From positions 1 to 55,634 of the forward strand of contig CATPBO010000038.1 of assembly GCA_955652835.1 (NCBI GenBank): a DNA stretch of 55,634 nt, written 5' to 3'. Position 1 is the stretch's first letter, and each line of letters starts with the position of its first letter. The notes beneath the pieces are model-generated. The model was not told the DNA's origin. It did not search any database and was given only the letters and a program-made list of their open reading frames with translations. Below, piece after piece: positions 32,097 through 33,700 of this stretch. Source of the stretch: Candidatus Dormiibacterota bacterium. Its GTDB lineage: Bacteria; Chloroflexota; Dormibacteria; Dormibacterales; Dormibacteraceae. The translations under genes were made by a program, and so were the position numbers.

Positions 32097-32125
32097 TTTG
32101 AGTTGACACCGATCGTCAACTCAAA
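32097..32125. promoter_or_regulatory. Perfect 11-bp inverted repeat, candidate operator overlapping a TTGACA
   Basis: TTTGAGTTGAC-accgatc-GTCAACTCAAA, ending 35 nt upstream of the 32161 start codon. Confidence 0.7.
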
Positions 32126-32160
32126 CGACACTCGCGGCATCCCGTAACTGGAGGTGCGCA

Positions 32161-32256
32161 ATGCGCAAGCTAATGCTCTCGTTGTTCCTTACGGTGGTGG
32201 CCATCGCGATCTCATTCGTGCCGGTTGCGGCAGCAGGGATCGGCCCCACCCCGTAA
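32161..32256 (+). CDS. 31-aa secreted-type small peptide, candidate signalling pro-peptide
   Basis: MRKLMLSLFLTVVAIAISFVPVAAAGIGPTP*; GGAGG 6 nt upstream of ATG; positively charged N-terminus, hydrophobic core, VAAAG cleavage-like region, short C-terminal tail. Confidence 0.65.
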   Translation: MRKLMLSLFLTVVAIAISFVPVAAAGIGPTP

Positions 32257-32283
32257 ATTCAGCCGTTAAGTTCGGCTCAGATG

Positions 32284-32321
32284 TGTCGAGTGTGGCGGTA
32301 TGGTTACCGCCATGCTCGACA
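32284..32321 (+). promoter_or_regulatory. Long hairpin overlapping the regulator start codon
   Basis: TGTCGAG-tg-TGGCGGTA-tggt-TACCGCCA-tg-CTCGACA: 17-position helix allowing two G-U pairs; contains ATG 32300 and ATG 32312. Confidence 0.6.
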
Positions 32322-33700
32322 GCCGCTACAAAGGCCGCCGTAAAGGAGTAGCCGTTCGCGAAGGCTCGGTCCGCCAAGCAAGGCTGGAAGCCAGCCTCAG
32401 CCTTGCCCAGGTCGCGGCGGGCCACGTCAGCCGGACCGCCATTCATCTAATCGAGTACGGCCGCGTCAAACCGTCACTCCAAACGCTTCGGGTGATCGCC
32501 CGCCAGACGCGCAAGCCCATCAGCTACTTTCTGCTTGACCCCGACGCCCATCCAGAGCTGACCGAAAGGCACAAGGAGCTGCGCGAGCTCGAGACCTTGA
32601 CCGTCGTCCGCGACTTCGGCGCCGTCGTCAAGCTGGGCCTTGCCCAGCTGGACAAGCGGTGGGCCGACGAAGATCTCGCGCTCACGCGCTTTTATCTGGG
32701 CCAGGCCTATTGCAGACTAGTTCAACCGGAAGAGGCGCTCCTGTATCTATCGCCGGCGCGGGCACAATTCGAGCGGCAGGAAGACGAGCTGTTGGCCGTC
32801 GATGCGCTCGACTGGGAAGCGAGTGCCTTGGGCTTATTGGAAGATCCGAACGCGATCGGTCTGGCGAACCTGGCCCTGGAGCGTTGCCGGAAAATCGATC
32901 CCACGCCACAGCAGCTCGAGGCTCGGATCCTGGGCCACCTGGCCAACATGTTCGTCGTCGCCGAATCTTGGGGCTTGGCGATAAGCCACTACCAGTCCGC
33001 TGTCGAAGCGGCCAGCGCAGTGAAGGATCTCCTTCAGCTGGCGAAGATGCACCACGGTCTCGGTCTTGCCTACCTGCAACTGCGCCAGCCTGCGACAGCA
33101 CGCCGGCACTTCGATCTGGCACTGGCGCTCTACTCGATGGAATCAGATACGAGCGCTGTCTTCCGTGTGGAGAATGATCTCGGCAACTTGCTTCTGCACG
33201 AAGGCCACATCGACTCGGCCGAACGACATTTCCTGACCGCTCTGGCCGGGGCCGAGGAGCTTGGCATGAATCGACGCGGTCGTGGATTCATCCTCGCCAA
33301 TCTTGGCGAAGTCTGTTTGAAACAGGGCCGCCTGGATGAGGCCCGAAGCTATTTGAACCAGGCGTTGGAGGTAGGAGAGGCCGTCGGTGAGCGAATCGTT
33401 CTTACCGTGGCTGGGATTCTCCTCGGTCAACTTGACGAGCGGCTTGGCAATACCCAGGCAGCAGATAACCACTTTCTTGAAGCGGTGCGCATTCTCGAGG
33501 AGCTCGAGATGCCAAATCGCCTCCGTGACTGTCACCTGGCGTATGCCCAGGTCCTGGAGGCCCGTGGGGATCTGCGCCCAGCCATCCGCCACATGCGTTT
33601 GGCGGCTGAGCTCGGCCGGCCTGAGGCTGTCGGGATCCCTATCGATCGTCCGGACGAGCAGACGTCCGTCTTACGGAAGCACGGTCGGTCGGTTTCCTAA
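32300..33700 (+). CDS. XRE-type HTH regulator with C-terminal TPR repeats (RRNPP-like architecture)
   Basis: N-terminal HTH VRQARLEASLSLAQVAAGHVSRTAIHLIEYGRVKPSLQTLRVIARQTRKPISYFL followed by about 350 aa of TPR-like helices (SAERHFLTALAGAEELG; LGEVCLKQGRLDEARSYLNQALEVGEAVG). Confidence 0.82.
   Translation: MVTAMLDSRYKGRRKGVAVREGSVRQARLEASLSLAQVAAGHVSRTAIHLIEYGRVKPSLQTLRVIARQTRKPISYFLLDPDAHPELTERHKELRELETLTVVRDFGAVVKLGLAQLDKRWADEDLALTRFYLGQAYCRLVQPEEALLYLSPARAQFERQEDELLAVDALDWEASALGLLEDPNAIGLANLALERCRKIDPTPQQLEARILGHLANMFVVAESWGLAISHYQSAVEAASAVKDLLQLAKMHHGLGLAYLQLRQPATARRHFDLALALYSMESDTSAVFRVENDLGNLLLHEGHIDSAERHFLTALAGAEELGMNRRGRGFILANLGEVCLKQGRLDEARSYLNQALEVGEAVGERIVLTVAGILLGQLDERLGNTQAADNHFLEAVRILEELEMPNRLRDCHLAYAQVLEARGDLRPAIRHMRLAAELGRPEAVGIPIDRPDEQTSVLRKHGRSVS

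Follow-up and report, generated by a model that had tools for sequence, protein, structure and literature searches.

RRNPP-type signalling is described from Bacillota (Firmicutes) and from mobile elements of these bacteria (PMC10075063, PMC9765709, PMC12700828), and it can be recognized by a signature of five criteria, i.e. a small propeptide, Sec export, a receptor of 250-500 aa, TPRs, and adjacency (PMC10075063). A chemical 'language' of this kind has so far been described only in Bacillus, Streptococcus and relatives, and in the literature that we searched, which covered few subscription papers and preprints, no such system is described in Dormibacterota or Chloroflexota. Here we report what appears to be a large family of tiny, putatively exported peptides, each encoded beside a predicted peptide-sensing gene switch of its own, in uncultured soil Dormibacterota. 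The starting point is one window, i.e. the whole stretch of DNA analysed (55,634 nt), from a Candidatus Dormibacterota MAG with a draft genome of 2.6 Mb in 263 contigs. NCBI ranks Candidatus Dormibacterota as a phylum, and those relatives that bear a name in GTDB are MAGs listed as Chloroflexi bacterium or Candidatus Dormi(i)bacterota.

The peptide gene, its predicted receptor and the putative operator

The first-pass annotation had reported a 31-codon ORF with a GGAGG RBS upstream of a 466-aa HTH-TPR regulator, and this arrangement is confirmed by the sequence and by Pfam. The locus contains the following features:

32097..32125, no strand assigned: operator, inverted repeat TTTGAGTTGAC-N7-GTCAACTCAAA (uniqueness, shuffles, conservation)
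32103..32108, + strand: -35-like TTGACA inside the left operator arm (invariant in 9/9 cassettes)
32127..32132, + strand: -10-like GACACT, 18 nt downstream of TTGACA (CGACACTC invariant in nine cassettes)
32150..32154, + strand: GGAGG RBS of the peptide gene, 6 nt before the ATG (direct sequence reading)
32161..32256, + strand: putative pro-pheromone gene, 31 aa, MRKLMLSLFLTVVAIAISFVPVAAAGIGPTP (ORF, conservation, pN/pS)
32233..32253, + strand: predicted mature peptide AGIGPTP or GIGPTP (register with orthologues; tail pN/pS)
32300..33700, + strand: HTH-TPR receptor/regulator, 466 aa (Pfam HTH_3, TPR_12 and others; AlphaFold model)
32369..32530, + strand: XRE-type HTH domain, residues 24-77 (PF01381, HTH_3, E 5e-06, above the gathering cut-off)
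32666..33616, + strand: TPR superhelix, residues 123-439, presumed to bind the peptide (AlphaFold model; Foldseek)

The stop codon of the peptide gene is separated from the receptor start by about 44 nt in the window. Nearly all of the 31-aa ORF is a hydrophobic segment, and the signal-peptide call is based on composition and an A-X-A-type site, i.e. on sequence alone. Of the Sec-type signal and VAAA-G site proposed earlier, the signal-like leader and the A-X-A-type site are present, and export itself is inferred. The predicted cleavage register is matched by the orthologues PVLA/SEIGPTP, PALA/GGIGPTP and PVLA/DGIGPTPK (slashes mark the cut).

In the regulator the TPR_12 match (E 9e-26) is accompanied by matches to further TPR families, and the AlphaFold model (mean pLDDT 81.4, with low confidence for the HTH) contains eight TPR A/B helix pairs from residue 123 to 439. 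Residues that are invariant in the clade with IGPT tails and rare elsewhere include Q205, L245, Q246, H251, H252, D293, R325, and R326. Many of these clade-specific residues lie in or beside helices that would face the groove, which is a pointer and no test of binding.

Within the 55-kb window, no inverted repeat other than the operator reaches an arm length of 11 at a spacer of 3-10, and 1 in 2000 shuffled versions of the intergenic region equalled it. The operator's right arm falls within the 18-nt spacer between TTGACA and GACACT. The operator is kept in all nine orthologous cassettes as TGAGTTGACA...GT(C/T)AA(C/G)TCA followed by CGACACTC, and in the 12 genomes searched the strict motif occurs solely at nine cassettes, in eight genomes (reversed control 0). 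As the strict motif is confined to the cassettes and overlaps the promoter, the cassette looks autoregulated. A generic sigma-70 scan did not call the TTGACA/GACACT pair, and the promoter is thus inferred from conservation.

When three mismatches were allowed, three g2 genomes shared one extra operator-like site in front of a gene for a small membrane protein; since a site also turned up in one genome with the reversed control, this second site is a candidate only. It reads TGAGTTGACTACCGTTGCAA(C/G)TCA (L129 3997, L131 4160, L130 2676), and the gene behind it, encoding a membrane protein of 131-139 aa, is a possible second target. Except for this weak site no conserved target outside the cassette was found, and conserved target operons for the IGPTP cassettes were rejected, as the neighbours vary between genera. 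In L004, L007 and L009 the stretch from the peptide stop to the receptor gene contains a GTTAAGTCA half-site, as in the operator of a peptide-less receptor clade described below; in others this half-site is weaker.

Conservation of the cassette and the wider peptide family

The clade of the window comprises nine full-length members, i.e. the window protein and eight relatives that are 59-70% identical. A small ORF of 31-32 codons is found at the equivalent place beside all nine, always preceded by GGAGG or AGGAGG, with 42-48 nt between its stop and the receptor start. IGPT is invariant in the nine orthologues, the tails being IGPTP, IGPTPK, and once IGPTGR. For the whole ORF pN is 0.255 and pS 0.544, with pN<pS in 36/36 pairs, whereas for the last five codons (the IGPTP tail) pN is 0.043 and pS 0.524. 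The tail is therefore the part most constrained as protein, while its codons drift, and the small ORF is a conserved coding gene under purifying selection that is strongest on the tail. Lack of conservation of the small ORF beside orthologous regulators had been named beforehand as the outcome that would refute the signalling proposal; this was checked, and start, RBS, leader and tail are all conserved. The genes flanking the IGPTP cassettes vary from genus to genus, so the pair of peptide and receptor is the conserved unit. In a genome of the same genus with conserved neighbours (G002), peptide gene and HTH are both missing, and an operator remnant and the TPR portion are left.

The peptide/regulator pairs form a larger family than the first-pass annotation had supposed. 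Relatives of the regulator were found in 52 of the 61 related genomes searched, usually several per genome, and paralogous regulators in families f1 and f3 are accompanied by other ORFs of 26-36 aa with a signal-like leader, an A-X-A-like site and the tails WPNP, STGPG, PPCC, WPPGT, and CHC. One automatic rule detects an upstream peptide ORF at 52 of 85 regulators of sufficient length, and five more were found by eye (L025, L026, L066, L083, L087). By fixed criteria (strong RBS, 22-40 aa, a charged and then hydrophobic N-terminus) such an ORF precedes 47/84 family regulators versus 0/206 other genes in the same loci; the raw control matches numbered seven, every one a family member that had escaped the filter.

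With added loci, 60 distinct short precursors are available, nearly all of which begin with MRK or MRR. Cutting at the best A-X-A-type site is predicted to yield a product of 7 or 8 residues in 52 of them, and Pro is present in 55 of the 60 predicted products. Examples of the predicted products are GIGPTP, SEIGPTP, and DGIGPTPK; DSTGPGI; GGVAPCCS and GPVPHCC; GSWPPGT; DTICHCS; EVWPNPM, GVWPNPT, and GIWPAPF. Peptide and receptor genes are 42-180 nt apart across the family. When tail classes are mapped onto an IQ-TREE phylogeny with 80 regulators, 14 changes are needed versus 44.8 with shuffled labels, and IGPT, STGP and CHC tails each form one clade with full or near-full support, i.e. tail type segregates with receptor clade.

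Moreover, some f3 precursors of about 60-77 aa carry the tail motif xWPN two or three times after one leader, with three copies in L083 (EAWPN, EMWPN, DIWPN) and L238 (three IWPN) and two copies each in L087, L234, L237, L251, and L081. These tandem copies are the strongest sign that the product is the tail motif and not the leader, an inference drawn from sequence.

Several further arrangements were observed. L032 (G008:C9:15000-20500) holds two different cassettes in tandem, with the tails DSIGPTGR and DSTGPHI. Small membrane-protein genes adjoin the CC-tailed cassettes L123, L124 and L139, as does the gene of a divergent PAS-histidine kinase (about 735 aa; checked in L124 and L139). In the CC clade a histidine kinase gene and one that resembles citramalate synthase by eye are found repeatedly in the vicinity, with no link shown. 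Additionally, short HTH-only paralogues occur as open frames of about 150-184 aa (L091 2207-2758, L089, L090), one of them immediately in front of a full cassette.

One clade of 23 regulators is mostly without a peptide gene, and some of its members have the operator TGACTTAAC-N6-GTTAAGTCA, which is related to the cassette operator. The clade includes L033, L036, L040, L043 and relatives (G000:C146 etc.), and at several inspected loci the peptide-less paralogues have on one side an ACT-domain gene that looks prephenate-dehydratase-like by eye and on the other, downstream, a gene that starts with LAKTLRNSK... These paralogues might be eavesdropper receptors or regulators of metabolism.

Within the class close members of the regulator family occur in 56 of 110 genomes, i.e. 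in most of family f1 and in 18 f3 genomes, and none was found among the listed genomes of f2 and f4. HTH-TPR proteins of similar architecture, detected with the same profile, are common in many families of the rest of the phylum-level (Chloroflexota) group, and there 1 of the 40 loci checked has a plausible exported-peptide ORF upstream. This sole case is L201 (G281:C44:66200-69800), where MARQLVILLAAVVSLLVEASEVALAGPRPPCVPGWGC lies upstream of an HTH-TPR gene. The phage records and viral contigs searched contained no copy, and a mobile-element origin was rejected on this ground.

Proposed mechanism and rival explanations

We suggest that the locus is probably an autoregulated peptide-pheromone/receptor cassette that works like an RRNPP system. 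The genes, their conservation and coding nature, the co-segregation of tail and receptor, the tandem tails and the conserved operator are shown; export, cleavage, re-import, binding, the direction of regulation and the targets are inferred, and no peptide has been detected. One promoter would transcribe the 31-aa precursor and then the receptor. Sec would export the precursor and signal peptidase would cut it in the VAAA stretch, releasing a peptide of 6-8 aa (AGIGPTP or GIGPTP) that would accumulate outside, be returned into the cell by an oligopeptide permease and bind to the concave face of the receptor's TPR superhelix. The free receptor, sitting on the palindrome over the -35 element and the spacer, would repress the cassette, and peptide binding would release or reshape it, resulting in autoinduction. 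Repression by the free receptor is favoured because the palindrome covers the promoter core. The genome encodes a type I signal peptidase (Peptidase_S26) and three SBP_bac_5 genes; the latter may carry unrelated substrates, and nothing ties these homologues to the AGIGPTP peptide. The mostly peptide-less clade of 23 receptors counts against the pheromone-module reading.

Three other explanations have to be weighed against this one. The peptide might never be re-imported and might instead stay in the membrane or inside the cell as a short leader with a cis effect on the regulator gene, i.e. a translation-coupled leader or attenuator. The position of its ORF 44 nt upstream of the regulator, apparently in one transcription unit, and the hydrophobic segment that makes up nearly the whole ORF speak for this, but it is the amino acids of the tail that are under the strongest selection, while its synonymous sites drift, nearly every precursor has an A-X-A-type site ahead of the tail, tail copies occur in tandem behind one leader, and the spacing to the receptor is not constant (42-180 nt), rendering a cis-acting leader highly improbable. 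Alternatively, the small ORF could encode a hydrophobic toxin with the HTH-TPR protein as its repressor or antitoxin. A small hydrophobic ORF, an XRE regulator and an autoregulatory operator would fit such a toxin-antitoxin-like unit; however, it is the hydrophobic part that varies and the short polar tail that is fixed within a clade, the tail changes with the TPR receptor clade, and multi-tail precursors exist, so that we consider this reading hardly tenable. Both readings were rejected, as they fail to account for tail conservation together with tandem tails.

The peptides, especially those with CC or CHC tails, might also be RiPP or bacteriocin precursors regulated by the HTH-TPR protein, and such tails are indeed found in two clades. 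Yet the cassettes, whose neighbours vary between genera, are not repeatedly accompanied by modification or transport enzymes, and most other tails contain few residues that are usually modified by RiPP enzymes, so this explanation, too, is very improbable.

Returning to the pheromone/receptor reading, paralogous cassettes in the same genomes would use other tails and other operators, and we therefore propose that the bacterium listens on several separate channels. In a bolder version, which we can neither favour nor dismiss, peptide signalling via cytoplasmic receptors arose independently, or spread early and diversified, in Candidatus Dormibacterota from an ordinary HTH-TPR regulator of the Chloroflexota group, giving rise to a multi-channel code (IGPTP, WPNP, STGPG, PPCC, WPPGT, CHC and others) with several receptors per genome; as some receptors lack a peptide, they would be possible eavesdroppers. 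If the pheromone/receptor reading is right, uncultured soil Dormibacterota own a rich peptide language, and its likely words can be taken directly from genome sequences and synthesized. The origin of such signalling outside Bacillota, the co-evolution of pheromone and receptor specificity, and whether synthetic peptides alter growth or activity of culture-resistant lineages would then become testable.

Comparison with RRNPP(A) systems

Measured against the five-criterion signature, the propeptide (10-100 aa) is met with 31 aa in the window, 26-36 aa elsewhere and about 60-77 aa in the multi-copy precursors, the receptor with 466 aa, the TPRs with TPR_12 and others in Pfam and eight pairs in the model, and adjacency (-60 to 400 bp) with 44 bp in the window and 42-180 bp across the family. 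For Sec export, an MRK n-region, an h-region and an A-X-A-type site are found throughout the precursors, judged by composition only and without a SignalP call. Thus, of the RRNPP-like signalling module proposed in the first-pass annotation, the statement that it works like RRNPP is well supported, with export, re-import and binding inferred, whereas descent from RRNPPA is not shown, as sequence and fold searches give generic TPR proteins as well as Rap and as the order of the genes, with the peptide first, is not the Bacillales one.

No close sequence relation to PlcR/NprR-type receptors was found. The TPR profile reaches Rap chains (best 3e-10), with generic and eukaryotic TPR proteins ranking higher. 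Among the 50 solved-structure matches listed by Foldseek, the Phi3T Rap-pheromone structure has the highest query-normalized TM-score (TMq 0.58), whereas LGN is first by E-value; residues 21-200 (HTH and first TPR part) match no RRNPPA receptor in the PDB at E<=5, and viral predicted structures give generic TPR matches only. The structural match is one to TPR superhelices generally and not to RRNPP receptors in particular.

The peptide-less HTH-TPR regulators of the Chloroflexota group share the domain architecture, but a plausible exported-peptide ORF accompanies them in only 1/40 loci outside the class. The combination of an XRE HTH and TPR receptor of 250-500 aa with an adjoining small propeptide, in Dormibacterota of predicted Sec type, and a short C-terminal pheromone, in Dormibacterota likewise predicted, is that of PlcR-PapR and NprR-NprX (signature in PMC10075063). 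These systems belong to Bacillales, whereas the window cassette is from Candidatus Dormibacterota and not from Bacillota, and the gene order differs, i.e. the Dormibacterota peptide gene lies upstream of the receptor gene and the Bacillales peptide gene immediately downstream (PMC9765709). RRNPPA codes resembling the Pro-rich IGPTP, WPNP and PPCC are not known to us. With Rap-Phr, including that of the phages Phi3T and phi105, the receptor shares the TPR superhelix; Rap, however, carries a three-helix bundle and lacks any DNA-binding domain (PMC9765709), whereas the window receptor has an HTH and a conserved operator. Finally, it is established that a single Rap-Phr propeptide can hold duplicated or tandem pheromones (PMC11343458), and the f3 precursors with tandem xWPN motifs resemble these duplicated Phr propeptides.
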